From an uncultured Prevotellaceae bacterium (GTDB lineage: Bacteria > Bacteroidota > Bacteroidia > Bacteroidales > Bacteroidaceae): 64,000 nt of DNA. A program made the translations under genes and the position numbers. Numbering within the stretch: the first letter of the stretch is position 1; each line of letters opens with the position of its first letter. Below are positions 15,527 to 36,982 of this stretch, piece by piece. The DNA is taken from the NCBI GenBank assembly GCA_902761905.1, contig CACWMK010000022.1, positions 25,191-89,190 on the forward strand, written 5' to 3'. The notes beneath the pieces were generated by a model, which searched no databases, was not told where the DNA came from, and worked only from the letters and a program-made list of their open reading frames with translations.

Positions 15527-15582
15527 CAAAGGTACGGCAAACCATAAAAGTAGCTGTGCCACCCTTACAAATCTTTGTGTCA
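15527..15582 (-). promoter_or_regulatory. Regulon promoter 1: 21-bp direct repeat plus -7 box
   Basis: Minus strand: half-sites TGACACA (15582-15576) and TGGCACA (15561-15555), starts exactly 21 bp apart; the -7 box TACCTTTG (15534-15527) starts exactly 27 bp after the second half-site. The second site covers the place of the -33 element, as for a class II activator. Drives the C11 protease. Confidence 0.7.
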
Positions 15583-15620
15583 TTTCTGCAAAACCTGCTT
15601 TCCAGGCTGTGGCACAGCAT

Positions 15621-15661
15621 AAAAAAACAGAGCTTGCCGTGGTATAGCAAGCTCTGTTTTT
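15621..15661 (-). terminator. Bidirectional terminator after regulator 1
   Basis: 11-bp stem ACAGAGCTTGC / GCAAGCTCTGT with a 9-nt loop, an A-run on one side and a T-run on the other. On the minus strand it ends the regulator transcript just before the regulon promoter of the protease. Confidence 0.8.
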
Positions 15662-15682
15662 ATCGATGAAATGGGTCTTTTT

Positions 15683-17366
15683 CTACTTTTTCGCTACATG
15701 ACGATAGTCGGAAGGCGACATGGCGTAGGTTTCGCTGAAAAGACGGTAGAAGGTGCGGCGGGATAGTCCGCAGAGTTCAGCAATTAGACCCACGGAGTCG
15801 TTGGTGGTAGAAAGCAAATGCGCGGCGTGGCGCAGACGGTAACTATTGATGAAGTCGGCAGGAGTCTGATCAGCACACTCGCGAATGGCATCGTATATGT
15901 AAGTACGGTTGGTGCCTAGCATACGTGCCAGCGAATCCGGATTTGTGTCGGGATCGGTGAAGATGTCAGGCTGCTTCATCAGTTCACATAGGCGTCGGTA
16001 AAGTTGCTGACCATTGGTAAGCTCAGTCTCGGGTGTAGCCTCCAACTGCTCAATAGCCTGTTGCTGCTCCTGTTCGCGCTGTTCAATCTCAGCCAGTAAG
16101 CGGCGGTTTTTCTCCGTCAGTACCTTATTATATTTATAGGAGCGCCAAAGCAGGTAAGCGATGAGCAAGATGATGATGAAGGCAGCAACAGAAATGATGC
16201 GATGCAGGGAAACCGAGAATTGCATATCTTTTAATTGCAAATCGCGTTCATGTGTTTGATAGATGACAGCCAGTTCCATCGTCTTGTCGCGGCGTTCCCA
16301 TAACTTAGCCGAATCGAGTGCAGTAATTATTCGGGTGGCTACAGCCAAGGCTGAATCACGCTCACCAGCACCCAAGAAGGCATCAAACCTCAGCTTTACA
16401 AACCCTTGCAGGTTCTCAATGTCGTATCTCATCCCTCTCTTATGGAGCAGAGGCTCTATTTCTTCCGAATTGGCTACAGCCTCGTCGAAACGATGGGCTA
16501 TGTTAAGATATGTCACCGAATTCGCCCGTCCTATCGCTGTGTTGTATAGGTGATTCTTCTGATATTCCTCGTAAGCCTTAGCGGCCTCATCATGACGACC
16601 TTCTATTTCGAGCAAGAAAGATTTAATAGCTAACAACTGTAACTGAATATAAGGATGATTCACATCCATCTCCTCAGGATGCTTAGCTAAATCATTCAAG
16701 ATTTTTTCTATGTATTCTACCCACACCCTGCCACGCTCATATTGGAACATATTACAATATCCAATCATAGCATCAACGGCTATCTTCAGACGATACGTTT
16801 TCAATTCCTTCAAACTTGAGTGCTCGTTTCAGATATTCCTCGGCTTGTTCATAACGCTCCAGGAAAATGTTACATCGGGCCATATTACTTAGCGTCTGTA
16901 CAAAGCTCGACAGGAGCAACTCATGGCTATTAATATAATCCATGTCGGCGTTGATTATATGCCGCTGCCCCTTGCGCAGTGCTAAATCATAATGCAGGTT
17001 TGCTACGTCCTTATCAATATCAAGTCCCTGAACCATGAAATGGAAGAAGCGGTCTTGCTCTGTCACCACCTTGCGAGCCAAAGCAGAGTCGATGATTGCC
17101 ATAGCATGTTTAGGGTTGTGATGATACATGACGCATGCTACATAGTAATCGCCGGTAATATCGCCTATTACGCCTTTATCCTTCAGGCTATCTACCAGAT
17201 GACATATTGATACGGTATCGTGGACTGTATTCAAAGTACTGTCTATCTCGGTTGGATTGAAATCACGATTGCGCGGGGCTTTGCCACACGAAAATATCAT
17301 TAATACTGCAGCTGCCAAGACTGCTAGCGGTAAGAATTTTCGGATGATTAAATTTGTCTTCTTCAT
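15683..17366 (-). pseudogene. TPR-transmembrane-AraC regulator 1, frameshifted
   Basis: Same architecture as the intact regulators at 17657, 24981 and 28941: lipoprotein signal (lipobox FSC), periplasmic helical repeats, one membrane helix followed by the KYNKVLTEKNRRLL coiled coil, and a C-terminal AraC-type HTH. Here the N-terminal frame (17366-16773, 197 codons) and the C-terminal frame (from about 16813 to 15683, starting only at TTG) overlap by 41 bp in different frames. The full span of 1684 bp is 561 codons plus one base, and intact paralogs have 560-564 residues, so a single indel near 16780-16813 explains it. No canonical slippery heptamer is visible. It could be a real pseudogene, a split gene or a sequence error. 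Confidence 0.75.
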
Positions 17367-17367
17367 T

Positions 17368-17395
17368 TATCTTTGCAAATTTGTTTGCAAAGATA
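17368..17395. repeat. 28-bp palindrome upstream of regulator 1
   Basis: TATCTTTGCAAA and its exact reverse complement separated by TTTG, directly in front of the regulator 1 ATG. Each arm begins with or contains a TATCTTTG -7-like box, so it may hold divergent promoters or an autoregulatory site. Confidence 0.5.
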
Positions 17396-17586: not shown

Positions 17587-17629
17587 GCATTTTTTACGGG
17601 AAAACGATGTATAATTGAAATAATATGCT

Positions 17630-17637: not shown

Positions 17638-17656
17638 CCCCTGAAATTATTTAAAC

Positions 17657-19339
17657 ATGCGACACTCCATATACCTAACACTATTATGCACCGTGCTAGC
17701 CATGATGGCATCTTGCACTAATTGCAGCGAGACGAAGGACGACGAGAAGGTAAAAGCAGCGTGGCAGCGCTATCACGAAGCCTACCATGCTAAGGATCTG
17801 AACCGCGCCTTGGTCGTCATCGACAGCATGGAGACAGAGAAGATTGTCAGTAAGCCAAAGGCTAACCAGCTGCGTGGACATGTCTACGACCAAGGTTGGC
17901 AGATGAAAATTGCTGAACAATTCTACAAGAAGTCTTGTCAAGGCTATGCCTCAGACCCTTCACAGGATTGGGGCTCCTATACCGATGCGGGCTACCGCTG
18001 GGCCTGTTTGCTCTTTCGTCGAGGTGACACTGAGGGAGCAATGAACATCACCACCGGGCTGCTGCAACAAGCAAAAGAAAACGAAGCGTTCCCCAAAGAT
18101 CAAGAGGCTACCTTGCTGATGCTCATGGCTGATATCCAGCTACAGCTGCACCAATACGACGAGGTACGTCTCACAGGGCTGAAAGTCTATGAGGTAATAG
18201 AACAAGAAGCTAATAATGGGAACGAAAGAGAATTGGATATAGCATGGACCTGTATCAACTTATCTGATATTCACCACAAAGCAGGAGACAGCGAAGGGGC
18301 AATGGCATGGCTTGACCGCTGTGCACAAGCGCTAACCCGTGCCAAACAAGGCGACTCGCTGATGATTGAGAAATGGAAAGGCCATATTTCCCTCAAACGA
18401 GCATTGTTTCTATTAGAAACGGGTCACGCTGCCCAAGCCCAGGCCACTTATGCAGCCATCCCCCGTAGTCGCCTGATGGAACCATTAGGCTACATAGAGG
18501 CTGCCGACTACCTGATGGCTGCTGGTCGCTACGACGAGGCAGCTGAATGGTATGAACGCATTGATAGCACCTATTTAGCTACCGACGGCGCCAAGATGAC
18601 TTTCGATATTATCGCTGAACGCCTCTCTCCCCGCTACATAGCCTACCGAAAGGCTGGCCGAAATGCCGACGCATTGCTACTTGCCGACAGTGTTAGCGCT
18701 GCCATCGACTCTGCCCTCGTCTGGCAGAAGCAAAACGATGCGGCTGAACTGGCAGTCATCTACCAGACCCATGAAAAGGAACTGGCACTGAACGATGCCA
18801 AAAGCGAGACTCGCATCCACCGTGTACTGCTTGCCGCTGCTATCCTTGTCATCCTGCTCATAGGCTACCTGTTCTGGCGTACACGAAAATATAATAAGGA
18901 ACTCCTTGAGAAGAACCGCCGATTGTTGACTGAGATAGAACAGCGCGAACAGGAGCAGCAACAGGTTATTGAACAGTTGGAGGCCGCGCCAGAGGCAGAA
19001 CTCACCACTGGTCAGCAAATCTACCGCCGCCTATGTGAACTGATGAAGCAACCCAACGTCTTCACCGACCCTGACACCAATCAAGACACGCTGGCACGTA
19101 TGCTAGGCACCAACCGAACGTACATCCAAGATGCCATTCGCGAGTGTGCCGACAAGACTCCTGCCGACTTCATCAACAGTTACCGTCTGCGTCACGCCAC
19201 TCACTTGCTTTCTACCACTGACGACTCTGTTGGTCTCATAGCCGAACTCTGCGGACTATCCCGTCGCACCTTCTATCGTCTTTTCAGCGAAACTTACGCT
19301 ATGTCGCCTTCCGACTATCGTCATGTAGCCAAAAAGTAG
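17657..19339 (+). CDS. TPR-transmembrane-AraC regulator 2
   Basis: A one-component membrane regulator of 560 residues. N-terminal signal with lipobox MASC (Cys20); helical TPR-like repeats to about residue 375; one membrane helix at about 389-408; an acidic-basic coiled coil (EKNRRLLTEIEQREQEQQQ); and an AraC-type HTH domain over the last about 120 residues, with the two helix-turn-helix units around LARMLGTNRTYIQDAI and GLIAELCGLSRRTFYRLF. This predicts periplasmic sensing and cytoplasmic DNA binding. The C-terminal part is almost identical to regulators 1, 3 and 4, while the sensor part is not. A regulon promoter starts 12 bp after its stop with no terminator between. The ligand is unknown. 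Confidence 0.8.
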   Translation: MRHSIYLTLLCTVLAMMASCTNCSETKDDEKVKAAWQRYHEAYHAKDLNRALVVIDSMETEKIVSKPKANQLRGHVYDQGWQMKIAEQFYKKSCQGYASDPSQDWGSYTDAGYRWACLLFRRGDTEGAMNITTGLLQQAKENEAFPKDQEATLLMLMADIQLQLHQYDEVRLTGLKVYEVIEQEANNGNERELDIAWTCINLSDIHHKAGDSEGAMAWLDRCAQALTRAKQGDSLMIEKWKGHISLKRALFLLETGHAAQAQATYAAIPRSRLMEPLGYIEAADYLMAAGRYDEAAEWYERIDSTYLATDGAKMTFDIIAERLSPRYIAYRKAGRNADALLLADSVSAAIDSALVWQKQNDAAELAVIYQTHEKELALNDAKSETRIHRVLLAAAILVILLIGYLFWRTRKYNKELLEKNRRLLTEIEQREQEQQQVIEQLEAAPEAELTTGQQIYRRLCELMKQPNVFTDPDTNQDTLARMLGTNRTYIQDAIRECADKTPADFINSYRLRHATHLLSTTDDSVGLIAELCGLSRRTFYRLFSETYAMSPSDYRHVAKK

Positions 19340-19351
19340 ATTTTGCAGAAT

Positions 19352-19407
19352 TGGCACAAAGATTTGCAATGGTGGCACACATATTTCCCCATCTTGCCGT
19401 ACCTTTG
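19352..19407 (+). promoter_or_regulatory. Regulon promoter 2: 21-bp direct repeat plus -7 box
   Basis: Half-sites TGGCACA at 19352-19358 and 19373-19379 (21 bp apart), -7 box TACCTTTG at 19400-19407 (27 bp from the second site). Between the half-sites lies AAGATTTGCA, also found in promoters 1, 4 and 5. Drives the small membrane protein and two lipoproteins. Confidence 0.72.
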
Positions 19408-19437: not shown

Positions 19438-19620
19438 ATGGAAATAAGTCTTATCCTCACCGTAGCCCTCGCTGCCTCCTTCATCGTGGTAGTACTGGTG
19501 CTGGTGGCTGTCATTGTTTACCAGCGATGGCAGATTGGCGACAAGAACGCCACACTGGGACGCTTCATCGACGAGAATGAGAAGATACGCCGCAAGATTG
19601 AACGCGCTGGAATCATATAA
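19438..19620 (+). CDS. Small membrane protein, 60 residues (copy 1)
   Basis: Not a family I recognise. One strong membrane helix (about residues 5-28, rich in V, L and A), then YQRWQIGDKNATLGRFIDENEK and a basic C-terminus, so probably N-out and C-in or the reverse with a charged cytoplasmic tail. A close paralog is at 24618-24800, and a relic of its first codons is at 26864. All three stand as first gene behind a regulon promoter, so the protein is a fixed part of this system. It starts 31 bp after the -7 box. Confidence 0.75.
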   Translation: MEISLILTVALAASFIVVVLVLVAVIVYQRWQIGDKNATLGRFIDENEKIRRKIERAGII

Positions 19621-21222: not shown

Positions 21223-21747
21223 CTGTCGGAAGCCAGCAGCCATATAGTCATCGAGCTTACCGATCATGTCTTGGCCGCACAGATAGCTTTAGACGCCATA
21301 GAAGCCTCGGGCATTGAGAGGGCCAGTCATCTGGCGTTCAAATTATTGTTGGATGATGGATGTGAAACTGTAGAGTTTACCACAAACCATAGAGCTGCAG
21401 TCCGTGCGCTTTCTCTGGTACTAGATAATGCCCGTAAGTTTACAGCTCCTGCTGAGGCTTATGGACAACATGCCGCAACGGATGGGAAAGAACGTGTCGT
21501 TTTGAGACTTAGCGTCGCTGACGGCGGCGTGCAGTTCATCGTCGAAGATACGGGTATCGGCATCCCTGCAACCGAGGCCGAGCGTATTTTCGATGAGTTC
21601 GTACAACTAAATGAATACTACGATGGCACAGGCATCGGACTAACCGTAGCTCGCAGCTTATCCCGCCGTCTGGGTGGTGATATCCAACTTGATACTACCT
21701 ATACCGATGGCGCTCGATTTGTGATGACATTACCCATTCCGGCCTAA
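21223..21747 (+). pseudogene. Histidine kinase C-terminal fragment (ATPase domain only)
   Basis: The frame is open from 21223 after a TAA at 21220, but there is no good start codon before a TTG at 21271. It carries the HATPase motifs in order: N-box LVLDNARKFT, G1 VEDTGIGIP, G2 GTGIGLTVARS and a closing GGDIQLDTTYTDGARFVMTLP. The dimerisation and phosphoacceptor region and any sensor are missing. The ending resembles that of the kinase at 37989. I read it as a remnant of a deleted two-component sensor. Confidence 0.7.
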
Positions 21748-21872: not shown

Positions 21873-22475
21873 TTATTCTTTGGTGGTCGACATTTTGCCA
21901 TCCTTGTCGAACGTGAAGGTGAAATTTTGGTTCAGACGGCCGGCATTGATTATTTCAGCCACTTTGTTGCCAGCGCCTTCACCGCCTCCCTTTGATGTAT
22001 ATGATTCGCCGTTATTTATCAAAAAGCCAGCATCGTTGTAGAGTCCATAGATGTATGCATAGCCACGGCTGTATTTGAATTTCTCTATCGAATCGATTGA
22101 TCCCTTGAGTTTGACCTCACGTTTGAAGGTAAAGGTGGCGGGCAGACCGTCGTAAGCCACGGTAATCTCGCACGCATAATTCTTATCAATGTTGTTCTCG
22201 TTCAAAACAAGAAATCTTGGCTCGTAACCATCGTTGTAATAAATAGTCTCCTCGCAGTTATCAAGCATGTCCTGAGTGGTGTAGACAGTGAAAGTCATAG
22301 CTACTTTAGCAGGAGTCTTGTCATCCTTGTTGTCTTTGTTGTTGTCATCGTCGCTGCTGCAGGCGCTGAATATGGTCATTGTCATTGCGCAGCAAAGAAC
22401 GGCTGCTAGCGTCATGATTGTCTTTTTCAATTGCTGCTTCTTGGCCTCAATTTGTTCATTTGTAAGTGTTGCCAT
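21873..22475 (-). CDS. Chimeric lipoprotein: peptide-leader start fused to a lipoprotein
   Basis: The first 16 codons (MATLTNEQIEAKKQQL) are those of the peptide gene at 36933, followed directly by KKTIMTLAAVLCCAMTMT, the normal start of the neighbouring lipoproteins, with lipobox FSAC. The body is 150 residues of unknown fold with an Asp/Asn/Lys linker. The promoter and leader codons are part of a 180-bp inverted repeat shared with 36803-36982. The signal peptide thus has an unusually long charged n-region; whether it is still exported cannot be told. An internal ATG five codons into the fused signal could serve as an alternative start. Confidence 0.75.
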   Translation of the reverse strand: MATLTNEQIEAKKQQLKKTIMTLAAVLCCAMTMTIFSACSSDDDNNKDNKDDKTPAKVAMTFTVYTTQDMLDNCEETIYYNDGYEPRFLVLNENNIDKNYACEITVAYDGLPATFTFKREVKLKGSIDSIEKFKYSRGYAYIYGLYNDAGFLINNGESYTSKGGGEGAGNKVAEIINAGRLNQNFTFTFDKDGKMSTTKE

Positions 22476-22605
22476 AATTTTTAATATTTTGTTGATTAAT
22501 AATTGAATTCGGTTGCAAAATTACAAACAATTATCCAAACTAATGTCTCACTAGCGGAAAAATATGTTTCATTTTTGGAATTTTCTTCATTTTGTTAATT
22601 TTGCA
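22426..22605 (-). repeat. 180-bp inverted repeat, left copy
   Basis: Reverse complement of 36803-36982 with four differences in 180 positions. It contains, in minus-strand order, the last codons of a glycosyltransferase gene (AKLTK then TGA in place of TAA), a regulon promoter and the first 16 codons of a double-glycine peptide gene. The two copies point outward from the 14.2-kb segment between them. Confidence 0.9.
22516..22571 (-). promoter_or_regulatory. Regulon promoter 3 (in the left inverted repeat)
   Basis: Minus strand: TGAAACA (22571-22565) and TGAGACA (22550-22544), 21 bp apart; -7 box TAATTTTG (22523-22516) 27 bp from the second site. It drives the chimeric lipoprotein. Confidence 0.65.
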
Positions 22606-24617: not shown

Positions 24618-24800
24618 TTACAAAAGACCCGCTTTTGATATCTTTCTGCGCATCTTTTCGTTTTCGTCGATGAAACGACCAAGTGTGGCGTTCTTGTCGC
24701 CTATCTGCCAACGCTGGTAGACGATTATAGCTATGAGCACCAATACCACTACTATCATGGTGGCTGCGAGGGCTACACTGAGGATGATACTTAACTCCAT
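24618..24800 (-). CDS. Small membrane protein, 60 residues (copy 2)
   Basis: Paralog of 19438-19620: same length, same membrane helix and the identical block YQRWQIGDKNATLGRFIDENEK; differences are conservative. First gene behind regulon promoter 4 on the minus strand, followed by lipoproteins, just as copy 1 is on the plus strand. Confidence 0.75.
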   Translation of the reverse strand: MELSIILSVALAATMIVVVLVLIAIIVYQRWQIGDKNATLGRFIDENEKMRRKISKAGLL

Positions 24801-24826: not shown

Positions 24827-24882
24827 CAAAGGTACAGCAAGGCGGGGAAACGGTTGTGCCACCCATGCAAATCTTTGTGCCA
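24827..24882 (-). promoter_or_regulatory. Regulon promoter 4: 21-bp direct repeat plus -7 box
   Basis: Minus strand: TGGCACA (24882-24876) and TGGCACA (24861-24855), 21 bp apart; TACCTTTG (24834-24827) 27 bp from the second site. Confidence 0.72.
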
Positions 24883-24922
24883 ATTACTCAAAAACAGCAT
24901 TTTAGCTGTGGCACAGCGTAAA

Positions 24923-24980: not shown

Positions 24981-26663
24981 CTACTTTTTCGCAACTTGAC
25001 GATAGTCGGAAGGCGACATGGCGTAAGTTTCGCTGAAAAGACGATAGAAGGTGCGACGGGATAGTCCGCAAAGTTCAGCGATTAGACCAACGGAGTCGTC
25101 AGTGGTAGAAAGCAAATGCGCGGCGTGGCGCAGACGGTAACTGTTGATGAAGTCGGCAGGCGTCTGGTCGGCACACTCGCGAATGGCATCGTGGATGTAT
25201 GTTCGGTTGGTGCCTAGCATACGTGCCAGTGTGTCTTGATTTGTGTCGGGATCGGTGAAGATGTCGGGTTGTTTCATCAGTTCGCAGAGTCGTCGGTAGA
25301 GTTGTTGACTAGTGGTGAGTTCAGCCTCGGGCGCGGCCTCCAACTGTTCAAGGGCCTGTTGCTGCTCTTGTTCGCGCTGTTCAATATCGGCCAACAAGCG
25401 GCGGTTCTTCTCCGTCAGTACCTTATTATATTTATAAGAACGCCAAAGCAAGTAGGCTATAAGTACACATATAAGGACTGCTGCAACGATTATGATGCGG
25501 TGGATGATTAGCGACTGGCGGCGGCTGGCAATCTCTGCCTCTTTCTGGCGGATTTCCTGCTGCTGCTCCACGTCAATCTTTCGCTCCTCCAGATGAATGG
25601 AATCGGTCAGATGGCGCATTCGGTCGGCATATACCATAGCCTCGTCCGTGCGCCCAGCCTTTTTCAATGCCTTGTAGTGGCTCATCATATAGTTGGTAAT
25701 GTAGGAGCTATTGATGGAGCTGCCCCGGGCCAGATAGAGGGAATCGGTCTGGCGGAACAGACGGATGGCTTCGTCATAGCGAGCTACTATCGTGAGGTAG
25801 CGGGCATCGGCTACCAAGTCATAGGGCGACGGATTCGGAGCCAGCCGATGTTTCTGGTATAGAGCCTCGGCCTTGTCGTAAAAGCCATTGGCTGCATAGC
25901 TCAGGGCCTGGTTGATGATAAGGTTGTTGCTGCGTAAGTTTAAAACGTTCTCCGGCATGTCTGGACAGCGGGCCATACGGGCCAGGGCCGTATCGCTGTT
26001 AGCTACCAAAGGCAGAGCCTTTTGAGGCAGGTCATGCTCAAGGTAGAACTCCGTGGTCTCTATTACGGCTATAGACAAGGCATCTATAATCCAGTAATCT
26101 TTGGGCTGTGTTACGCCCATCATCAGGTCGACGCCCTCCTGATAATAGTGTTCGGCCTGTTCGATGTGCCCCATGCGCTCCTCGCAACTGGCTTTGGTGG
26201 TAAGCGCACGACTTTTTACCCGCAGGGCCATCTGCTCGTCCAAACCACCCATGTCCACGTCGGCAATAATTTCGTCGGCCAAATGGATGGACTTTCCCCA
26301 TTCGCCATTTTTGTTTAGCAGCGAGGTAATCAGGAGAAGGGCCGAATAATAGTTAACACCTTCGCTCCTGAGTTCGGGACTATTCTTGATCTTCTCGCCG
26401 TAGAAAATAGCCAATTGTGTCTTGCCCATTTGCCCATAAACATTGGTTCTAATCAGGTTGGCCGTAGTTTCCGAAAACACGCCAACCTGCTCAGCACTGT
26501 CTACCCGCGATAATACTTGTTCTGGGTTCGAGAATAATATTTCCTGAAGCTCGTTCTTCAAGTTGGTTGCTTCCTCACTGCGGTCAGGTTTCGTGCAGCC
26601 TATCGTCAGGGCCACTACGGCGACAATAGTTGTCAAAATGATTATATATCTGCTCTTTTTCAT
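24981..26663 (-). CDS. TPR-transmembrane-AraC regulator 3
   Basis: 560 residues from the ATG at 26663 (MKKSRYIIIL), chosen because regulator 4 starts at the same conserved place; an ATG three codons upstream (26672) is possible. Lipobox TIGC, TPR-like helical region with paired A-x-x-Y repeats, membrane helix followed by LLWRSYKYNKVLTEKNRRLL, coiled coil and AraC-type HTH nearly identical to the other three copies. It reads away from the peptide genes at 26933, and its 3' end is followed by a terminator and regulon promoter 4. It therefore sits between two regulon promoters. Confidence 0.8.
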   Translation of the reverse strand: MKKSRYIIILTTIVAVVALTIGCTKPDRSEEATNLKNELQEILFSNPEQVLSRVDSAEQVGVFSETTANLIRTNVYGQMGKTQLAIFYGEKIKNSPELRSEGVNYYSALLLITSLLNKNGEWGKSIHLADEIIADVDMGGLDEQMALRVKSRALTTKASCEERMGHIEQAEHYYQEGVDLMMGVTQPKDYWIIDALSIAVIETTEFYLEHDLPQKALPLVANSDTALARMARCPDMPENVLNLRSNNLIINQALSYAANGFYDKAEALYQKHRLAPNPSPYDLVADARYLTIVARYDEAIRLFRQTDSLYLARGSSINSSYITNYMMSHYKALKKAGRTDEAMVYADRMRHLTDSIHLEERKIDVEQQQEIRQKEAEIASRRQSLIIHRIIIVAAVLICVLIAYLLWRSYKYNKVLTEKNRRLLADIEQREQEQQQALEQLEAAPEAELTTSQQLYRRLCELMKQPDIFTDPDTNQDTLARMLGTNRTYIHDAIRECADQTPADFINSYRLRHAAHLLSTTDDSVGLIAELCGLSRRTFYRLFSETYAMSPSDYRQVAKK

Positions 26664-26686
26664 AAGTGTCATTGATAAAATTGCAG

Positions 26687-26694: not shown

Positions 26695-26782
26695 CACTTT
26701 TTTTCCTAATAATCGAAAACTTTTTCTTTTTTTACCTCGTTTTTATGCTTTGCCACGGCCTGGAATGCAGGTTTTGCAGAAT

Positions 26783-26838
26783 TGACACAAAGATTTGCAA
26801 GGGTGGCACACATGTTTCCACGCTTTGCCGTACCTTTG
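26783..26838 (+). promoter_or_regulatory. Regulon promoter 5, in front of the peptide genes
   Basis: TGACACA at 26783-26789 and TGGCACA at 26804-26810 (21 bp apart), TACCTTTG at 26831-26838 (27 bp from the second site). Divergent from regulator 3. Confidence 0.72.
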
Positions 26839-26932: not shown

Positions 26933-27121
26933 ATGGCAACAATGACAAACGAACAGATTGAGCAGAAGAAGCAGCAGTTGAAGCAACTGGCTGAAGAAGT
27001 AAAACAACTGAAGAACGAACTGGTGGAAGCCGGAGCGTGGCCCCTCAGCGAGGATGACCTCGACAACGTGGCTGGCGGTCTTCTTATGCCATGGATCCTT
27101 AACCCTGAAGCTTATTTCTAA
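26933..27121 (+). CDS. Double-glycine leader peptide A, 62 residues
   Basis: Likely precursor of a secreted peptide. A charged helical leader (MATMTNEQIEQKKQQLKQLA...) ends in DDLDNVAGG, a pattern like the Nif11/NHLP-type and Bacteroidales GG-type leaders I know from peptide natural products. Cleavage after GG would release LLMPWILNPEAYF, a 13-residue hydrophobic core without cysteine. Four relatives are in the window (27163, 33160, 33428, 36933). First intact gene behind regulon promoter 5. No protease/exporter of the C39 type is in the window. Confidence 0.75.
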   Translation: MATMTNEQIEQKKQQLKQLAEEVKQLKNELVEAGAWPLSEDDLDNVAGGLLMPWILNPEAYF

Positions 27122-27162: not shown

Positions 27163-27396
27163 ATGGCAACAATGACAGTAGAACAGATTGAGCAGAAGAA
27201 GCAACTGCTCGCAGAGAAAGTGAAAGAGATGAAAGCCATCTACGACGAACTCGTGGAGGCTGGTGCAATCGAACTGTCCGAGGAAGAACTCGACAAGGCC
27301 GCCGGAGGAGATTCTTTCCAGGGATGGAGACCTCCTACATTCAATAGAGATACGAAAACAGAAGATGATCCCCTTGACTTTTCATGTGATCTCTAA
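27163..27396 (+). CDS. Double-glycine leader peptide B, 77 residues
   Basis: Leader closely related to peptide A, ending SEEELDKAAGG, followed by a 28-residue acidic core rich in Asp, Thr and Pro with one cysteine near the end (DFSCDL). 41 bp after peptide A and 28 bp before the LRR protein gene, so probably in one transcript from promoter 5. The single cysteine makes thioether rings unlikely. Confidence 0.75.
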   Translation: MATMTVEQIEQKKQLLAEKVKEMKAIYDELVEAGAIELSEEELDKAAGGDSFQGWRPPTFNRDTKTEDDPLDFSCDL

Positions 27397-27424: not shown

Positions 27425-28735
27425 ATGAGAAAGCATTTCTATCTGCTGGTAGCCATCCTTGCGATGGCGACGCTGGGCGCGAAGGCCCAGGACAACGTGT
27501 TCAGCTACACCTACGAGGGTGCGACGCTCTACTATGTCATCGACTCGGTAGGCAACGCCGCCGTGGTGCCGCCACTGTACCCCTTCAGCACTAAAGACGA
27601 CACCAACGACAACGCCTGGGGCGACTACGACAAGCCCACGGGTGCGGTCTCTGTGCCACAGTCCGTGCCCTACCTCAGCGCGATGCACCCCGTCACCGCC
27701 GTGGCCGACTATGCCTTCTTCAACTGCAGAGAGATGACAGGCGTGACCCTGCCGCAGTCCGTCGCTTCCCTTGGCCGCAATGCCTTCGCCCAATGCCGCG
27801 CTATGCAGTCCGTCAACATCCCCGACGGCGTGACCAGCCTCAGCTATGGTTGCTTCCAGGTTTGCAGGGCGCTACAGACGATTGACATCCCCGCCAGCGT
27901 CCGCACCATCGACACGGGAGCCTTCTACAATTGCCGTGGGCTGAAAGAGGTGACCTTCCACGAAGGACTCGACAGCATCGGCCGACTGGCTTTCTGCTTC
28001 TGCACCTCGCTCGAAAGCGTTACCCTGCCCGAAGGTCTGCGCTATATCGACTACGAAGTCTTCATGCGCGACTCCCTCCTGCGCCACATCGATCTGCCCT
28101 CCACGCTCGAGGTGGTCATTGACAACGCCTTCCGCTGCAATCCGAAGCTCGAAAGCATCACCTTCCCCGACAACATGAAGTATCTCGGCGGCGGCGTCGT
28201 GATGGAATGCCCCAATCTCACCTACGTGCATCTGCCCGAGAACCTGGAGACGATGGGGCAGTTCATGCTCTGTAACACAGGCCTTGAGACCTTCGTCGTG
28301 CCGCCGCACGTGCAGACCATCGAGTATCAGGCCTTTGCCGATTGTCAGCGCCTGCACAAGGTCACCCTGCCCGCCAGCGTCACCACCCTCGGCTGGGGCC
28401 TCTTCGACAACTCGCCGATAGACACCCTAGCCGTGGAGTGCACCGTGCCGCCCACGCTTATCGAGAAACACGGCTACACCACCTTCCAGGAGTACACCGC
28501 TACCCTCATCGTCCCCGCCGGCTCTTTGGAGACCTACCGACAGCATCCCGTCTGGGGCCTCTTCACGAACATCGTCGAGGACACGACGACCGCCGTCAAG
28601 GAAATCAAAAATAGTGAATTGTCAAATAGTAAATTCTTTGACCTCAATGGGCGCCGCCTGACCAGCAAGCCCACACGCCGCGGCATATACATCAACAATG
28701 GACGCAAAATGATGATAAAGCAAGGTAACAAATAG
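27425..28735 (+). CDS. Secreted BspA-type leucine-rich repeat protein
   Basis: 436 residues: signal peptide (MRKHFYLLVAILAMATLGAKA), then about ten BspA/LRR_5 repeats of roughly 23 residues with the pattern C..L..V.LP..V..IG..AF, then a C-terminal segment FFDLNGRRLTSKPTRRGIYI-NNGRK common at the end of secreted Prevotella proteins and probably a sorting or anchoring signal. Proteins of this type bind host or microbial surfaces. Codons are clearly GC-richer than in the genes before it, suggesting separate origin. It lies in the same direction 28 bp after peptide B. Confidence 0.85.
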   Translation: MRKHFYLLVAILAMATLGAKAQDNVFSYTYEGATLYYVIDSVGNAAVVPPLYPFSTKDDTNDNAWGDYDKPTGAVSVPQSVPYLSAMHPVTAVADYAFFNCREMTGVTLPQSVASLGRNAFAQCRAMQSVNIPDGVTSLSYGCFQVCRALQTIDIPASVRTIDTGAFYNCRGLKEVTFHEGLDSIGRLAFCFCTSLESVTLPEGLRYIDYEVFMRDSLLRHIDLPSTLEVVIDNAFRCNPKLESITFPDNMKYLGGGVVMECPNLTYVHLPENLETMGQFMLCNTGLETFVVPPHVQTIEYQAFADCQRLHKVTLPASVTTLGWGLFDNSPIDTLAVECTVPPTLIEKHGYTTFQEYTATLIVPAGSLETYRQHPVWGLFTNIVEDTTTAVKEIKNSELSNSKFFDLNGRRLTSKPTRRGIYINNGRKMMIKQGNK

Positions 28736-28917: not shown

Positions 28918-28940
28918 CTGCATTGTTATCAATAACACTT

Positions 28941-30635
28941 ATGAGAAAGAGCAGATATTTCATCATATTGATAGTTTTTGTCGCTGTAGTGGCCCTGATG
29001 ACTGGCTGCTCGAAGCCTGACCGCAACGATAAAGCTGCTGCGCTGAGCAAAGAGATAGTCAACGATGGATTATCCGACGTTGAACATTCTGTGGAGCGAG
29101 TGGATAGTGCGGAGCAGGCGGGTTTGTTCACGGCAATACGTGCTAACACTATTAAAGCAATTATCTATGAGAATGCCGACCGAAGGCGGCTGGCAGCCTA
29201 TTACGCAGAGAAAGCGATTGCTGCAGAAGCGGGACATGCTGTCGCCACGTCGGCAGACAGCAACCTTTATTGTAAGGCTCGCTTGATTCTGGGTAACGGT
29301 GCATACGCCGATGGCGAGTATGGTAAATCACTCGCCCTCTCCAAGGAAATCCTTGCTTTTTTGGGTGATGGCACAACGCCAAATGATTTGGAGATGAAGT
29401 GCAGGGCACTGATGCAGATGGCAGATTGTGAAAGCAAACTGGGGCATATTGCAGAATCCGAGCAGTTGTTTCTGCAATGCATCGATGATTTGATGGCGAG
29501 TACACAGCATGCGACCGATTATGGGGAGATTGATCCGCTCATCTATACGTTGCTTTCACTCAACGACCTGTATATCGACAATAAGATGCCAGAGAAGGCA
29601 CTGCCCCTGATGGCGAAGATGGACACAGCGATGGCGCGTCTTACACGCTGTCCAAACACTCCCGACTGGGCGATGCAAAAGCGCCGCAACAACGTGACCA
29701 TCAGTAAGGCGATGGTCTATGCTGCCAATGGACAACGAGAGCAGGCGGAGATCCTTCACCGTGAATATCAACAGTTCCAAGGTCTTGGCGCGTTAGACAT
29801 GGCAGCCGAAGGTCTGTATCTGTCGATGACGGGCCGTTACGACGAGGCAGTCCGCTTGTTCGACGAAACCGACTCTATGATGCGCTCCAATGGCGAGCCC
29901 ATCAGCGACCTCTATGTAAAGACCTTGCTCAATTACAAGTATGATGCTCTGCAGAAGGCGGGACGCGCGACAGAGGCTCTGGCGCTAGGCGACCGTATAC
30001 GGCAGTTAACCGACTCCATCCGCCAGCAGGAGCGTCAGGCCGACGTGGAGCAGTTGCAGGAAATCAAGCGTCAGGAAAACGAAATCTCCAGCCGCCGCCA
30101 GTCGCTCGTCGTCCACCGTATCATCCTTGCCAGTGCCACCATTATCATCTTGCTCATCGCCTACCTGCTTTGGCGCTCCTATAAATATAATAAGGTGTTG
30201 ACCGAGAAAAATCGTCGTTTGCTGGCTGAGATTGAGCAGCGCGAGCAGGAAAACCAACAAGCTATTGAGCAGTTGGAGGCCGCACCAGAGGCTGAACTCA
30301 CTACTGGTCAGCAACTCTACCGCCAACTCTGTGAACTGATGAAGCAGCCCGACATCTTCACCGATCCCGACACTAATCCTGATACGCTGGCCCGGATGCT
30401 AGGCACCAACCGAACGTACATCTACGATGCCATTCGCGAGTGTGCTGACATGACTCCTGCTGATTTCATTAACAGTTACCGTCTGCGTCACGCCACTCAC
30501 TTGCTTTCTACCACCAACGACTCCATAGGTCTCATTGCCGAACTCTGCGGACTATCCCGCCGCACCTTCTACCGTCTTTTCAGCGAAACTTACGCCATGT
30601 CGCCTTCCGACTATCGTCATGTAGCCAAAAAGTAG
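28941..30635 (+). CDS. TPR-transmembrane-AraC regulator 4
   Basis: 564 residues from ATG 28941 (MRKSRYFIILIV); the longer frame to a TTG at 28923 overlaps the conserved leader and is not used. Lipobox MTGC (Cys25 region), TPR-like helices, one membrane helix before LLWRSYKYNKVLTEKNRRLL, coiled coil, and the conserved AraC-type HTH ending AMSPSDYRHVAKK. Closest to regulator 3, including the promoter. A regulon promoter begins 12 bp after the stop and drives a C11 protease. The four regulators share recognition helices, so they should bind the same sites while sensing different signals. Confidence 0.8.
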   Translation: MRKSRYFIILIVFVAVVALMTGCSKPDRNDKAAALSKEIVNDGLSDVEHSVERVDSAEQAGLFTAIRANTIKAIIYENADRRRLAAYYAEKAIAAEAGHAVATSADSNLYCKARLILGNGAYADGEYGKSLALSKEILAFLGDGTTPNDLEMKCRALMQMADCESKLGHIAESEQLFLQCIDDLMASTQHATDYGEIDPLIYTLLSLNDLYIDNKMPEKALPLMAKMDTAMARLTRCPNTPDWAMQKRRNNVTISKAMVYAANGQREQAEILHREYQQFQGLGALDMAAEGLYLSMTGRYDEAVRLFDETDSMMRSNGEPISDLYVKTLLNYKYDALQKAGRATEALALGDRIRQLTDSIRQQERQADVEQLQEIKRQENEISSRRQSLVVHRIILASATIIILLIAYLLWRSYKYNKVLTEKNRRLLAEIEQREQENQQAIEQLEAAPEAELTTGQQLYRQLCELMKQPDIFTDPDTNPDTLARMLGTNRTYIYDAIRECADMTPADFINSYRLRHATHLLSTTNDSIGLIAELCGLSRRTFYRLFSETYAMSPSDYRHVAKK

Positions 30636-30647
30636 ATTTTGACGAAT

Positions 30648-30703
30648 TGACACAAAGATTTGTAGGGGTGACACACTTGTTTCCCAGTCTTGCCGTACCT
30701 TTG
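30648..30703 (+). promoter_or_regulatory. Regulon promoter 6: 21-bp direct repeat plus -7 box
   Basis: TGACACA at 30648-30654 and 30669-30675 (21 bp apart), TACCTTTG at 30696-30703 (27 bp from the second site). Drives the C11 protease at 30763. Confidence 0.72.
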
Positions 30704-32945: not shown

Positions 32946-33060
32946 TAAGTACATTTTATATAATTCTCTTAGAAATAATTATGTTGTATCATACATTTTT
33001 ACCAACTTATCTTCGTCGGATACAGCAGCCATGCTGATGGCGGAAGCTTTTTTCCTAAAA

Positions 33061-33116
33061 TGAGACATATTTTGCCTTCTATGATACATAGTTTTAAATA
33101 AAATGTTGTATTTTTG
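33061..33116 (+). promoter_or_regulatory. Regulon promoter 7, in front of peptide C and the glycosyltransferases
   Basis: TGAGACAT at 33061 and TGATACAT at 33082 (21 bp apart), TATTTTTG at 33109-33116 (27 bp from the second site). Same geometry as the others with a variable fourth base in the half-site. Confidence 0.65.
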
Positions 33117-33399: not shown

Positions 33400-33427
33400 T
33401 CGTAGGTTGTATTAAATATTTAAAATT

Positions 33428-33603
33428 ATGGCAACACTGACAGAACAAGAGATTGAGCAGCTACAGTGGAGGCCGGAGCCGTACCGATCGCCGACGATTT
33501 CCTCGACGAGGTGGCTGGAGGAGGTTTTGATGCGGGTGGTCTTTGGATAACAGTACGTCCATCTTATAGTCGGCCTGCCCCCACCCTATATTATAGACAA
33601 TAA
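33428..33603 (+). pseudogene. Double-glycine leader peptide D, broken by a 52-bp deletion
   Basis: The first 13 codons match peptide C (MATLTEQEIEQLQ); then 52 bp present in peptide C are missing, and the sequence resumes in another frame at EAGAVPIADDFLDEVAGG. From the ATG the frame ends after 40 codons at 33548. The original core frame (after GG: GFDAGGLWITVRPSYSRPAP...) stays open to the TAA at 33601-33603, directly touching the ATG of the first glycosyltransferase (TAAATG). This shows that peptide and glycosyltransferase genes were tightly coupled. Confidence 0.75.
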
Positions 33604-34665
33604 ATGCTTTACCTCTGCTATTCCATCAACGACTTCTCCATTATGGAGGCCGGCATCTCGCTGCTGAGTTTCCTGATGAACAACCCGGGCTACGAGCCTG
33701 ATGAAGTGTTCTTTGTGGACTACGGCATCCACCCGCGCAACAAGGAGCGGCTCGGTGAGATTGCCGCCCGCTACGGCAAGCACGTTACCTACCTCGACGG
33801 AAAACCCATGACCGACCGCGTGAAGCGAGAATTCCCCCACTTAGGGGCGTGGCGCGGCACGATGGCCCCCAATGCCAAGGCGTTTATGGATAAGATCGTA
33901 CCCTCGTATGTGGATCGGCTCCTCTTCCTGGATGCCGACACGCTGGTGACGGGATCGGTGGCCGACTTGCAAAGCCTCGACATGGGCGGGGCAGCACTCG
34001 CCGCCGTGCCGCAGGCCTGGACTACGGCCCAAATCAGGCGCGGCCAGCTGAAGCTCTACTCCGGCAGCGACTTCTACTTCAACTCCGGAGTGCTGCTCTA
34101 CGACCTCAACGTGTGGCGACGGGAGGACTGCCACCAGATGGTGATAGACATGCTGCGGACGAAGAAGCAACTGTATTCGCCCGACCAGACATTGCTCAAC
34201 AACGCCATTCCCGCGCGGCTGCAGTATCAGCTGCCGTTGAAGTACGACCACATGACCCATTATATGCACCCCCGACAGGAACCTAAGTTCCTGGCCACAT
34301 TCGGTGTGCATAAGAAAGAGGAGATCGACGAGGCCATACAGCACCCCGTGATCGCCCACTTCACCGGCGGCGACCATCAGGCCCGTCCGTGGCACAAGGG
34401 CTGTTGGTCGTACCGCAAGGATGAGTATCTGCGCTACAAAGCGCTCTCGCCGTGGAAGGACACTCCGCTGCTCTACGACTTCCGGAAGAAGCATCCGCGA
34501 AAGGACTTCCCAGGCAAGTGCAACATGTTCATCTACTGGCTGATGGCTAAGCAACCGTCGCATACCTTGACGGCCACAGTGGCGCTGGCGCTTGACCGAG
34601 TGAATGCCCTGAGAGCACGTATATTGCACCTGCCGCCAGAGATGGAGGAAGGGGTCGAAAATTGA
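33604..34665 (+). CDS. Family 8 glycosyltransferase 1
   Basis: Nucleotide-sugar-dependent, probably cytoplasmic. 353 residues with GT8 marks in order: N-terminal LCYSINDF, metal-binding DxD in LFLDADTLV (Asp110, Asp112), FNSGVLLYDL near 159-168, DQTLLNN near 194-200 and a C-terminal HFTGG...RPWH. No signal peptide or membrane helix. It begins right at the stop of peptide D. Two tandem paralogs follow. GT8 members use UDP-glucose or UDP-galactose in lipopolysaccharide, glycogen or glycoprotein synthesis; here a peptide target is possible but unproven. Confidence 0.83.
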   Translation: MLYLCYSINDFSIMEAGISLLSFLMNNPGYEPDEVFFVDYGIHPRNKERLGEIAARYGKHVTYLDGKPMTDRVKREFPHLGAWRGTMAPNAKAFMDKIVPSYVDRLLFLDADTLVTGSVADLQSLDMGGAALAAVPQAWTTAQIRRGQLKLYSGSDFYFNSGVLLYDLNVWRREDCHQMVIDMLRTKKQLYSPDQTLLNNAIPARLQYQLPLKYDHMTHYMHPRQEPKFLATFGVHKKEEIDEAIQHPVIAHFTGGDHQARPWHKGCWSYRKDEYLRYKALSPWKDTPLLYDFRKKHPRKDFPGKCNMFIYWLMAKQPSHTLTATVALALDRVNALRARILHLPPEMEEGVEN

Positions 34666-34685
34666 TAATTGATAATTGTATAGAT

Positions 34686-35750
34686 ATGCTTTACCTCTGC
34701 TATTCCATCAACGACTTCTATGCCCGCGAGGCGGGTATCTCGATGTTGAGTTTCCTCGACAACAATCCTGACTATGAGCCACAGGAGGTGTTCTTCATCG
34801 ACTACGGCATCCATCCGCGCAACCGTGAGCGGCTCAACGAGATAGCCGCCCGCTACGGTAAGCACATCACTTACCTCGACGGCCGTCCTGTGACCGACGA
34901 GGTGAAGCGTAAGTTCCCCAACTATCCTTCATGGAAGGGGAGTATGGCGGCCTGCATCAAGCCGTTCATCGACAAGGTAATGCCCGACTACGTGGAACGG
35001 CTGCTCTATATCGATGCTGATACCATCGTGGCTGGGTCTGTAGCAGGACTGGCAAAGATGGACATGGGCGAGGCCGTGGTGGCAGGCACCATCTCGAACG
35101 TGGAAGGCATCAAATTGCAGCGGCACGAGTATGAACTCTATAGCGGTAACCATATCTATATGGGATCTGGCGTGCTGCTCTTCAACCTGAAGAACTGGCG
35201 GCGCGAGAACATCTACGAGCGGATGATCGACGTGCTGGGAAAGAAGAAACACCTGCGGCTGCCCGACCAGATGCTCATCAACAACGGCATCCCTGAAAGG
35301 CTTATGAAGGTGCTGCCCCAGAAATATAATTATGTGCATCACTCATACCATCCCTGGCAGGAGTATCACTGGATGCGGCAGTTCCGCATCTATTCGAAGG
35401 AAGAGTGCCGCGAGGCCATCAATCACCCCGTCATCATCCACTACCTGACAGGCTGGGTACTGGCTCGCCCGTGGCATGAGGACTGCCGTTCGCACCGTAA
35501 GGAGGAATACTACCACTACAAGGCGCTCTCGCCATGGAAGGACTCGCCGCTCTATCCGCCCATTCAGCAGATGTACCCACCCAAGAACCGGGAGGACAGG
35601 CTCAACCAGTGGTTCCTCATGCAGATGATGAAGCCACGCCCGTTCTTTCTGGTATGGCTGTTGTTTCAGGCACTCTGCGTCTATGGACGCATCGCATGCA
35701 AGATACAGGGCACGTCCTCACACTCGGAAGAAGGAATTGAAGTAGAATGA
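34686..35750 (+). CDS. Family 8 glycosyltransferase 2
   Basis: Paralog of glycosyltransferase 1. The ATG at 34686 (MLYLCYSINDFYAREAG) is chosen because all three paralogs start this way; the frame is open to 34662 across an AT-rich spacer with TTGATAATTGATAATTG. DxD is LYIDADTIV, then GSGVLLFNL in place of FNSGVLL, DQMLINN and HYLTGWVLARPWH. Long basic insertion near YNYVHHSYHPWQEY is shared with copy 3. A hydrophobic C-terminal stretch (FFLVWLLFQALCVYG) may attach it to the membrane. Confidence 0.82.
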   Translation: MLYLCYSINDFYAREAGISMLSFLDNNPDYEPQEVFFIDYGIHPRNRERLNEIAARYGKHITYLDGRPVTDEVKRKFPNYPSWKGSMAACIKPFIDKVMPDYVERLLYIDADTIVAGSVAGLAKMDMGEAVVAGTISNVEGIKLQRHEYELYSGNHIYMGSGVLLFNLKNWRRENIYERMIDVLGKKKHLRLPDQMLINNGIPERLMKVLPQKYNYVHHSYHPWQEYHWMRQFRIYSKEECREAINHPVIIHYLTGWVLARPWHEDCRSHRKEEYYHYKALSPWKDSPLYPPIQQMYPPKNREDRLNQWFLMQMMKPRPFFLVWLLFQALCVYGRIACKIQGTSSHSEEGIEVE

Positions 35751-35765
35751 AAAGTTTAGAGTGAT

Positions 35766-36821
35766 ATGTTATACATCTGTTATTCGATAAACGACTTCTA
35801 TGCCCGCGAGGCGGGTATCTCAATGATTGGTTTCTTCGAAAACAATCCCGACTATGAACCGGAGGAGGTTTTTATCCTTGACTACGGCATCCATCCCCGC
35901 AACAAGGAGCGACTCGACGGGATTGCCAGTCGTTACGGCAGACACGTCACCTTTCTGAACGCCAAGACCGTGACCGATGCTGTGAAGCGCGAGTTCCCCG
36001 ACCTGAAGGGCTGGCGCGGCTCGATGGCGCCTAACGCCAAATGCTTTGTGGAGCAAATATTCCCCGACTATGTGGAGCGGCTGCTCTTCATCGATGCCGA
36101 TACCGTGGTGGCGGGTTCCGTAGCCGAACTGAATACCATCGACATGAGCGGGGCGGCCCTCGGCGTCGTACCCGTCAACTCTGGTGCGGAAATCATCCGA
36201 GAGGGGAGTTTAAAGCTATTAAGCGGCAACCGGATATACTTCAACAGCGGCGTGCTGCTCTACAACCTGCCCGTGTGGCGACAGGAAAACTGTCACCAGA
36301 TGATCATCGACACACTCCACAAAAAAATCGACCTGGAATGGCCCGACCAGAATCTTCTCAACAACGCCATCCCCGAACGAGTCATCAAGACGCTGCCGCA
36401 GAAGTTCAACTACTGTACACACCACTATCATCCCCGCCAGGAGCGCAGCTGGCTGCGGATAGGTCACTACTACAGCGATGAGGAGATAGATGAGGCCATC
36501 CAGCATCCCGCCATCGTTCATTATCTGAGCGGCTGGATCATGGCCCGTCCCTGGTACAAGGTCTGTCGCTCGCATTGTCAGGAGCCCTACCTGCGCTACA
36601 AGGCCCTCTCGCCGTGGAAGGACTCTCCGCTATTCACGCCCAACTACGAGTCCATTCCGGTCAAGGGCCTGATGCAAAAACTAGACCGATGGCAGGCCCT
36701 CCTGGCGTTCAACCAGCCCTCATTCACAATCGCCCACCTCGCCGCCCTGGCGTATGAGAAAATAAACAGGGTATACCATAAAATGAATAGAAAGAAAATA
36801 AATGCAAAATTAACAAAATAA
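35766..36821 (+). CDS. Family 8 glycosyltransferase 3
   Basis: 351 residues, 15 bp after copy 2. Same order of motifs: LCYSINDF variant ICYSINDFYAREAG, DxD in LFIDADTVV, FNSGVLLYNL, DQNLLNN, HYLSGWIMARPWY. A hydrophobic-basic C-terminus follows. Its last six codons lie inside the 180-bp inverted repeat, whose left copy near 22.6 kb carries the same codons without the gene. Confidence 0.82.
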   Translation: MLYICYSINDFYAREAGISMIGFFENNPDYEPEEVFILDYGIHPRNKERLDGIASRYGRHVTFLNAKTVTDAVKREFPDLKGWRGSMAPNAKCFVEQIFPDYVERLLFIDADTVVAGSVAELNTIDMSGAALGVVPVNSGAEIIREGSLKLLSGNRIYFNSGVLLYNLPVWRQENCHQMIIDTLHKKIDLEWPDQNLLNNAIPERVIKTLPQKFNYCTHHYHPRQERSWLRIGHYYSDEEIDEAIQHPAIVHYLSGWIMARPWYKVCRSHCQEPYLRYKALSPWKDSPLFTPNYESIPVKGLMQKLDRWQALLAFNQPSFTIAHLAALAYEKINRVYHKMNRKKINAKLTK

Positions 36822-36982
36822 AGAAAATTCCAAAAATGAAACATATTTTTCCGCTAGTGAGACATTAGTTTGGATAATTGTTTGTAACTTTGCAACCGAA
36901 TTCAATTATTAATCAACAAAATATTAAAAATTATGGCAACACTTACAAATGAACAGATTGAGGCCAAGAAGCAGCAACTGAA
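36803..36982 (+). repeat. 180-bp inverted repeat, right copy
   Basis: Matches the complement of 22426-22605 at 176 of 180 positions. It starts in the last codons of glycosyltransferase 3 and ends in codon 17 of peptide E. Because this copy is embedded in intact genes on both sides, it is more likely the source and the left copy the transplant. Confidence 0.9.
36837..36892 (+). promoter_or_regulatory. Regulon promoter 8, in front of peptide E
   Basis: TGAAACAT at 36837 and TGAGACAT at 36858 (21 bp apart), TAACTTTG at 36885-36892 (27 bp from the second site). Confidence 0.68.

Follow-up and report, generated by a model that had tools for sequence, protein, structure and literature searches.

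Candidate activator promoters with a 21-bp direct repeat beside membrane-anchored AraC-family regulators in an uncultured Prevotellaceae bacterium

Introduction

Which regulators act on a set of promoters that share one fixed spacing, and which genes would they turn on? The question is raised by a 64,000-nucleotide stretch of the genome of an uncultured Prevotellaceae bacterium (assembly GCA_902761905.1, contig CACWMK010000022.1, positions 25,191 to 89,190, forward strand; hereafter the window), where eight promoter-like sites, each with two TGRNACA heptamers followed by a TAnnTTTG box, are interspersed with genes for four predicted membrane regulators (R1 to R4) with AraC-type helix-turn-helix (HTH) domains and tetratricopeptide repeat (TPR)-like parts. 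An earlier, sequence-only reading had proposed a single regulon under these four regulators. We propose, with a probability of about 0.85, that the sites serve membrane-anchored AraC-family regulators as activator promoters of class-II type, a conclusion drawn from comparison of sequences in this and related genomes.

Results

Sixteen sites share one geometry

The eight sites have exactly the sequence pattern that the sequence-only reading gave them, TGRNACA-21-TGRNACA-27-TAnnTTTG, with correct coordinates and strands, and their architecture is indeed fixed: a search of the window allowing up to two mismatches returns the same eight and no others, all with zero mismatches. We refer to this geometry as 14/20, for the 14 bases between the heptamers and the 20 bases from the proximal heptamer to TAnnTTTG. 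The whole-genome motif scan that the sequence-only reading had suggested was run on the draft assembly (100 contigs, 3.45 Mb, 92% complete, with the window on contig C22) with the second gap left free (18–22), and gave 16 matches with identical spacing, 16/16 having 20 bases before TAnnTTTG. Eight are those of the window and the rest lie on contigs C6, C10, C14 (two), C20 (three) and C48. The reversed pattern has no match in the same genome and dinucleotide shuffles of the window (n=100) contain a mean of 0.00 matches to the spaced pattern; a chance origin of the sites was rejected on these two controls. When 120 genomes of the genus were scanned with both gaps free (12–16 and 16–24; 45 combinations), 15 had any match. 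The 16 sites of this genome were again all at 14/20, and the other 119 genomes yielded 21 matches, 11 of them at 14/20, with three matches to the reversed control in all 120.

The candidate operator/promoters of the window, including the upstream extension described below, are as follows.

15527-15594, minus strand: class C (two copies of TTTTSC-N5-TGRCACA, then 20 bp and TACCTTTG), at the C11 protease gene 13806-15476
19340-19407, plus strand (heptamer at 19352): class C, begins one base past the R2 stop codon and heads a small membrane protein and two lipoprotein-like genes
22516-22583, minus strand: A/G class, precedes a lipoprotein-like gene, within a 180-bp copy of the 36837 promoter
24827-24894, minus strand: class C, heptamer 98 bp past R3, heads a small membrane protein and lipoprotein-like genes
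26771-26838, plus strand (heptamer at 26783): class C, divergent from R3 and followed by two double-glycine peptides and a BspA-type leucine-rich repeat protein
30636-30703, plus strand (heptamer at 30648): class C, begins one base past the R4 stop codon and heads a C11 protease
33049-33116, plus strand (heptamer at 33061): G/T class, heads a double-glycine peptide and three GT8 glycosyltransferases
36825-36892, plus strand (heptamer at 36837): A/G class, at a double-glycine peptide

Recent duplication alone might make promoters alike in the absence of any common regulator, and copying has clearly occurred, as the 22516 and 36837 sites lie in a 180-bp copy of 97.8% identity and the C10 site is identical to one of the C20 sites. 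Among the non-duplicate sites, however, the spacing is fixed and does not drift. It is kept at sites with other letters, also beside regulators that are 18–22% identical to R4 and in other genera (L190, L194, L198), and the half-site private to a paralogue on contig C55 has the same geometry. We therefore regard duplication by itself as a highly improbable cause of the likeness, and turn to the extent of the sequence that a common type of regulator would recognise.

The operator extends upstream of each heptamer

A base profile was compiled from 54 distinct sites, made up of 15 of the 16 from this genome (one identical copy removed) and 39 from 32 loci of relatives, these loci having been picked for a neighbouring regulator or a Bacteroidales title. 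A TTTT(C/G)C box, whose letters were not part of the search pattern, stands at -11 to -6 and at +10 to +15 from the first heptamer, thus preceding each heptamer, and in 51 of the 54 sites a C follows directly 3' of TAnnTTTG. The operator thus begins about 12 bp upstream of the first base assigned to it by the sequence-only reading, and is longer than in that version, the TTTTSC box recurring before both heptamers. The full operator is two copies of TTTTSC-N5-TGRNACA with a 21-bp period, followed by 20 bp and TAnnTTTGC.

A scan of sequences irrespective of genus with the heptamer/-7 pattern alone gave at least 116 loci, of which 80 were used and split by hand from their titles, a box being counted when TTT and C/G stood at the fixed places. 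These 80 mix genuine Bacteroidales sites with chance matches in other groups, and named relatives that carry a site include Xylanibacter ruminicola D31d and Prevotella ruminicola KHT3. The distal box is present in 29/48 sites of 43 Bacteroidales/Bacteroidia loci versus 0/37 in 37 other loci (of other phyla and other Bacteroidota orders), and the proximal box in 31/48 versus 1/37. In a further 36 loci from the same scan, with 36 sites, the distal box is present 15 times and the proximal box 14 times. Searching with the TTTTSC-box pattern itself (three mismatches, one base off register) gave nine matches, seven of them already known, against two for the reversed control, and so gained nothing.

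The Bacteroides -7 consensus is TANNTTTGY in the part of PMC12632263 drawn on here, and by its numbering the last bases of the proximal heptamer coincide with position -33. The 54-site profile shows no TTTG box at -33, which suggests that the core promoter is weak when unaided.

Six predicted membrane regulators of AraC type

The regulators of the window and their two relatives elsewhere in the genome are listed here (TM, transmembrane; ORF, open reading frame).

15683-16813, minus strand: R1, TM and AraC HTH part; the HTH profile matches, and the rest is in an overlapping ORF
16773-17366, minus strand: R1 N-terminal lipoprotein-like part in another frame; one sub-threshold TPR match
17657-19339, plus strand: R2, TPR-TM-AraC regulator; passes the Pfam TPR cut-off
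24981-26672, minus strand: R3, TPR-like-TM-AraC regulator; TPR matches sub-threshold
28923-30635, plus strand: R4, TPR-like-TM-AraC regulator; TPR matches sub-threshold
L033:6168-7016 (contig C14): fifth relative, a membrane AraC protein without TPR, beside the NHLP-type exporter and flanked on both sides by A/G/T sites
contig C55: sixth relative, a paralogue with its own half-site GTTTTGCGGAATNCTNACA

R1 to R4 share a layout in which a lipoprotein-like N-terminus is followed by a TPR-like middle, a single TM helix and a double HTH of AraC type, the last matching PF12833 at 56.5–58.4 bits (cut-off 33.6) and PF00165 at 33.5–37.4 bits (cut-off 26.6); the C14 and C55 proteins are above both cut-offs as well. 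Four TPR-AraC regulators had been counted in the sequence-only reading. All four do have the AraC HTH, but a TPR above cut-off is present in R2 only (TPR_4, 32.2 bits versus 27), and R1 is split over two overlapping ORFs (15683-17366, minus strand), by a frameshift or an assembly error. Pfam TPR models have no match in the C55 protein at E 0.01, and the C14 protein likewise has no TPR match. When a profile of the regulator family was compared with solved structures, it matched consensus TPR chains (E 2e-35) and generic TPR and AraC chains, Rap phosphatases among them. In pairwise comparisons R1 to R4 are 90–94% identical in their HTH parts and 24–41% in their sensor parts. HisKA, HATPase and receiver domains are absent from R1 to R4 and from the C14 and C55 proteins at E 0.01. 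A histidine kinase ATPase domain stands alone in an ORF of the window at 21271-21747 (plus strand; PF02518, 71.9 bits).

The two copies of the C55 half-site GTTTTGCGGAATNCTNACA are 17/19 identical, are arranged in the same 14/20 geometry, and are found once in the genome at up to three mismatches. The surrounding locus (L037:435-3648) contains the regulator, its private operator, a 74-residue small membrane protein and a lipoprotein-like gene, and so has the same modular content with other letters.

Regulator genes adjoin the sites

In 25 of 104 distinct sites, a number that includes 37 of the non-Bacteroidales group, a regulator of the family, with an AraC-type HTH, a TM helix and in most cases a TPR-like part, ends upstream on the same strand, and in 23 of these it does so within 100 bp. 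After R2, R4 and the C14 protein the distance from the stop codon to the heptamer is exactly 12 bases, so that the half-site starts directly after the stop codon.

To offset the bias of loci retrieved with the pattern itself, we also took 97 regulators fetched by protein similarity only, with the copies of the window itself (L184, L211) excluded. TAnnTTTG is present between -60 and +400 of the stop codon in 52 of the 97, and in 14 it is preceded by a 19-bp direct repeat (at least 12 identities, 20 bp from the TA) with a period of 21; three of these 14 (L190, L192, L193) are near-identical. The same repeat test at the other periods from 12 to 35 gave zero to three each, the three being at period 22. 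In nine loci of a later fetch (four of them at places already known) there are seven matches at period 21 and none or one at each other period from 12 to 35. Regulator and site also occur together at the level of whole genomes, as, among the other genomes of the genus, an exact 14/20 site is found in 8/24 that encode a regulator (E <= 1e-30) versus 1/95 that do not (Fisher 7e-6).

Half-site letters vary with the HTH motifs

We collected 37 regulator-site pairs and grouped them into 24 clusters at 80% HTH identity. A first HTH motif (HTH1) of the form TN[RK][TS]Y is paired with G at base six of each half-site (6/7 clusters versus 1/17; Fisher 3.5e-4), and a second (HTH2) ending in xFYR goes with C in both heptamers (5/7 versus 0/17; Fisher 4.9e-4, or 1.8e-4 with the off-register cluster L249 excluded), all of these p-values serving as a guide only. 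Mosaic regulators fit both associations: L048 combines TGGCACA with an RSFYR HTH2 and a TTTTC box with a non-RTY HTH1, and L189 and L198 have NRTY with TTG and lack both FYR and the C. The RSSFFR regulators of L188 and L212 have TGRGACT sites, and L186, an RSSFFR regulator with no match downstream, has one TGRGACT pair at 14/20 with TAATTTTG, divergently upstream of its gene. A scan that used no letters was applied to five new loci (L319, L323, L324, L326, L327) and found a site in three, with TGAGACT in the two RSSFFR loci (L323, L326) and a TTTTTCC box with GAAACA in the PSRVTLAR locus (L319). These data suggest that the letters of the half-sites follow the HTH1 and HTH2 of the regulator, with four later-examined loci fitting this pattern.

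In the window, the five C-type sites adjoin R1 to R4, whose HTH2 reads ...SRRTFYR, and the genome's regulator with an HTH2 of the ...PSR(A/V)TL(A/S)R class is the TPR-less C14 protein. Because of the HTH-letter code and the neighbourhood, the C-type sites fit R1 to R4, and the A/G/T sites fit the C14 protein. There are probably two regulons, with R1 to R4 sharing the five C-type sites and the C14 protein most likely driving three A/G/T sites inside the window and eight sites outside it; some cross-binding between the two classes may occur. The sequence-only reading is supported in its AraC-type regulator on a 21-bp direct repeat that reaches -33, but not in its single regulon under the four regulators, since the A/G/T sites carry the letters of the PSR(A/V)TL(A/S)R class. 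One could still suppose that R1 to R4 and the C14 protein bind all 16 sites alike and that the letter classes are drift, since the geometry and the TGRNACA core are common to all sites and the two classes are interleaved in the window. We think this unlikely, though the least so of the alternatives, because the class of the site tracks the HTH1 and HTH2 sequences across genomes, mosaics included, and because the C14 regulator lies between two A/G/T sites and R1 to R4 lie beside class C sites.

A model for activation, and points against it

In the activator reading that we prefer, a regulator dimer would set its two HTH pairs on the two 19-bp half-sites at a 21-bp period, the TTTTS box being read by HTH1 and the TGRNACA box by HTH2. 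At the proximal half-site, whose end falls on -33, the bound HTH2 would replace the missing -33 box and recruit RNA polymerase. The sites together may turn on a secretion programme of double-glycine peptides, an NHLP-type exporter, C11 and C10 proteases, lipoproteins and a small membrane protein. We infer binding, dimer formation, activation, the assignment of regulators to sites in the cell and periplasmic sensing by the TPR-like part. The proposal that a 21-bp repeat covering -33 reflects AraC-type binding has gained from the geometry, the adjacency and the HTH-letter association.

The same position of the proximal half-site, which covers -33, would also suit a repressor that blocks -33 and whose departure turns the genes on. 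AraC activates from just such an arrangement, a direct repeat of 21 bp that extends to -35/-33, and we count this against repression. The apparent weakness of the core promoter, predicted from the missing TTTG box, points the same way. The motifs of hybrid two-component systems (HTCS) in Bacteroides also share the 21-bp distance (part of PMC3878776). Repression is in our judgement improbable.

Several observations weigh against the activator reading. Among the 25 adjacent regulators, L040 and L046 match weakly or only in part, and two stand as far off as 177 and 295 bp. The period-21 repeat is lacking in most similarity-fetched regulators and depends on the score, being found in 14/43 at 91 bits or more and in 0/54 below 91 bits. 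At L191 the downstream repeat (15/19 identical, 20 bp from TAATTTTG) has a period of 22, and 16/24 regulator-bearing genomes of the genus (E <= 1e-30) are without the exact site. The HTH features were picked after the table had been seen, and the clusters share descent. The RSSFFR regulators L187 and L324 and the L327 regulator have no such site in their loci of about 3.5 kb. Finally, it is the -33 position alone that favours activation over repression.

Genes behind the sites

The gene content described in the sequence-only reading (two C11 proteases, two small membrane proteins, lipoproteins and double-glycine peptides) is correct. The genes, other than those of the small membrane protein, are the following.

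13806-15476, minus strand: C11 (clostripain family) protease with lipoprotein-like N-terminus; PF03415, 83.7 bits
21873-22475, minus strand: lipoprotein-like protein whose ORF opens with ~18 residues from the start of a double-glycine leader that was copied along with the promoter
26933-27121, plus strand: double-glycine leader peptide; leader profile
27163-27396, plus strand: double-glycine leader peptide; leader profile
27425-28735, plus strand: BspA-type leucine-rich repeat protein; PF13306, 228 bits
30763-32532, plus strand: C11 (clostripain family) protease with lipoprotein-like N-terminus; PF03415, 72.9 bits
33160-33399, plus strand: double-glycine leader peptide; leader profile
33604-36821, plus strand: three GT8-family glycosyltransferases, after the 33061 site and its peptide gene; PF01501
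36933-37115, plus strand: double-glycine leader peptide; leader profile

Behind the complete peptide gene at 33160 there is a double-glycine leader fragment (33414-33457). The 180-bp copy (22426-22605 versus 36803-36982) comprises the promoter, operator and leader start, and its position before the lipoprotein gene accounts for the leader residues at the start of the lipoprotein ORF; from the sequence this looks like promoter capture.

At the outside sites, double-glycine peptides are encoded on C6, C10, C14 and C20. The C14 locus contains, in the opposite direction, a small membrane protein, a HlyD-like adaptor, two ATP-binding cassette (ABC) proteins, a second HlyD-type membrane-fusion protein and an outer-membrane efflux protein. 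The first of the ABC proteins (L033:8369-10510) matches TIGR03796 (NHLM_micro_ABC1) at 892.4 bits versus a cut-off of 853.3, and the HlyD-like adaptor falls short of TIGR03794 (99 versus a cut-off of 156.2). Four of the peptides were scanned for NHLP and Nif11 leaders (TIGR03793 and TIGR03798), and none reached the cut-offs, with best scores of 18.2 versus 50.9 and 13.5 versus 32.3. On C48, short leader-like ORFs are followed by a C10 protease that carries a Spi inhibitor domain (PF01640, 205 bits; PF13734, 86 bits) and then by another such peptide.

The genome was searched with two leader-type profiles built from peptides of such loci. They gave 8 and 14 matches above 30 bits, and 22/22 are downstream of a site on the same strand, 21 of them within about 0.9 kb and one at 2.9 kb. 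Another five matches score under 30 bits. The one on C4 (17.6 bits) is without a site; the other four fall in loci already counted, as fragments or overlaps.

Another genome of the genus (G034; contigs C34, C44 and C68) contains a repeated promoter-like element, TGGGACAA-CAGTCCCAACGGG-TGGGACAATAA, at a variable distance to TATATTTG.

A small membrane protein follows some of the regulators

Two copies of a small membrane protein are encoded in the window.

19438-19620, plus strand: 60-residue small membrane protein (one TM, YxRWx...FIxEN), first gene past the operator; ORF and profile
24618-24800, minus strand: second copy, 60 residues; ORF and profile

A protein of this kind (~60–94 residues, one TM, YxRWx...FIxEN) is encoded behind 14 of 130 distinct regulators, after 17 had been flagged automatically and three rejected by eye; at one locus with the protein behind the regulator (L195) the operator was not recognised. 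A profile of the protein finds 11 places in 6/251 genomes of the family, and all eight with E <1e-20 are ~90–185 bp downstream of a regulator HTH match. Since seven of these eight are rows of the profile itself, the weight of this result is in the lack of strong matches elsewhere. The three weaker places are not beside any listed family regulator. The C14 copy (L033:7106-7390) has a longer C-terminus and a degenerate double-glycine-like stretch, with a leader-like match directly behind it.

The protein has a weak profile likeness to the juxtamembrane part of the regulators (probability 27.8, E 6e-4). As a lead, it may be a copy of that part; that it serves as a partner or feedback element is a guess.

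Discussion

The combination of sensor and promoter type proposed here can be set beside several known systems. The RRNPP receptors (Rap, PlcR) are cytoplasmic TPR sensors coupled to regulation. R1 to R4 may resemble them in tying a TPR-like sensor to regulation, the TPR match of our family being a generic one. They differ in that our regulators, as read from their sequences, have a signal- or lipoprotein-like N-terminus and a TM helix before the AraC HTH, features that argue against a cytoplasmic receptor.

Escherichia coli AraC at araI1-I2, like class II promoters, has two direct half-sites 21 bp apart, the proximal of which overlaps -35. The sites described here have the same 21-bp half-site pair, with the proximal unit on -33. 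They differ from araI1-I2 in the predicted membrane anchoring of the regulator and in having the Bacteroidota -7 box TANNTTTGY (part of PMC12632263).

Among systems of the Bacteroidota, the closest are the HTCS of Bacteroides thetaiotaomicron. In the part of Ravcheev et al. (2013, PMC3878776) drawn on here, the direct repeats of HTCS motifs lie on average 21 bp apart, which is interpreted as dimers separated by two turns on the same face of the DNA, so that AraC HTHs of other membrane sensors provide a precedent for the geometry. The two systems are alike in having an AraC-type HTH on a membrane sensor, a direct repeat of ~21 bp and a regulator that is often beside its targets. HTCS, however, have a histidine kinase and receiver and serve polysaccharide use, whereas the proteins here have a TPR-like part or none, a TM helix and the HTH, and the sites head genes for peptides, an exporter, proteases and lipoproteins. 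SusR-like regulation shares the membrane regulator, the direct-repeat operator and the occurrence in Bacteroidota, but the same part of PMC3878776 gives 67 or 77 bp between the centres of SusR-like motifs, and the half-sites here are 21 bp apart (in a scan of periods up to 40).

The export genes resemble NHLP-type systems in the C14 exporter, above its TIGR03796 cut-off, and in the double-glycine leaders; they differ in the C14 adaptor, below TIGR03794, and in the four leaders that fall below the NHLP/Nif11 cut-offs. A survey of Bacteroidales clusters for ribosomally synthesized and post-translationally modified peptides includes peptidase-containing ABC transporter (PCAT) exporters, double-glycine leaders and, in two clusters, TPR genes (PMC10352776). 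It mentions pheromone binding as a possibility, and in the part of it drawn on here the present regulon is not treated. We found no description of this class of TPR-like membrane AraC regulator with its gene set, and nothing closer than the systems above, in the open-access literature searched, a scope outside which most subscription journals lie.

A tentative extension, rather doubtful at present, is a peptide-signalling circuit, in which double-glycine peptides or their cores would be exported by the NHLP-type system and sensed in the periplasm by the TPR-like domains, the paralogues would merge their many inputs into one secretion programme via a common promoter code, and the small membrane protein, encoded first in the operon, would pair with the TM or juxtamembrane helix of the regulator as feedback.

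Analysis of the sequence alone thus yields a set of 16 promoters and a testable half-site for TPR-like membrane AraC regulators. The pairing of HTH motif and half-site would be a small recognition code, applicable to such regulators in other Bacteroidota, and one programme may link a small membrane protein that bears no label and proteases of the C11 and C10 families to the secreted peptides and the exporter of these. If the TPR-like part senses peptide, this would be a peptide-signalling route in Prevotella-like bacteria.

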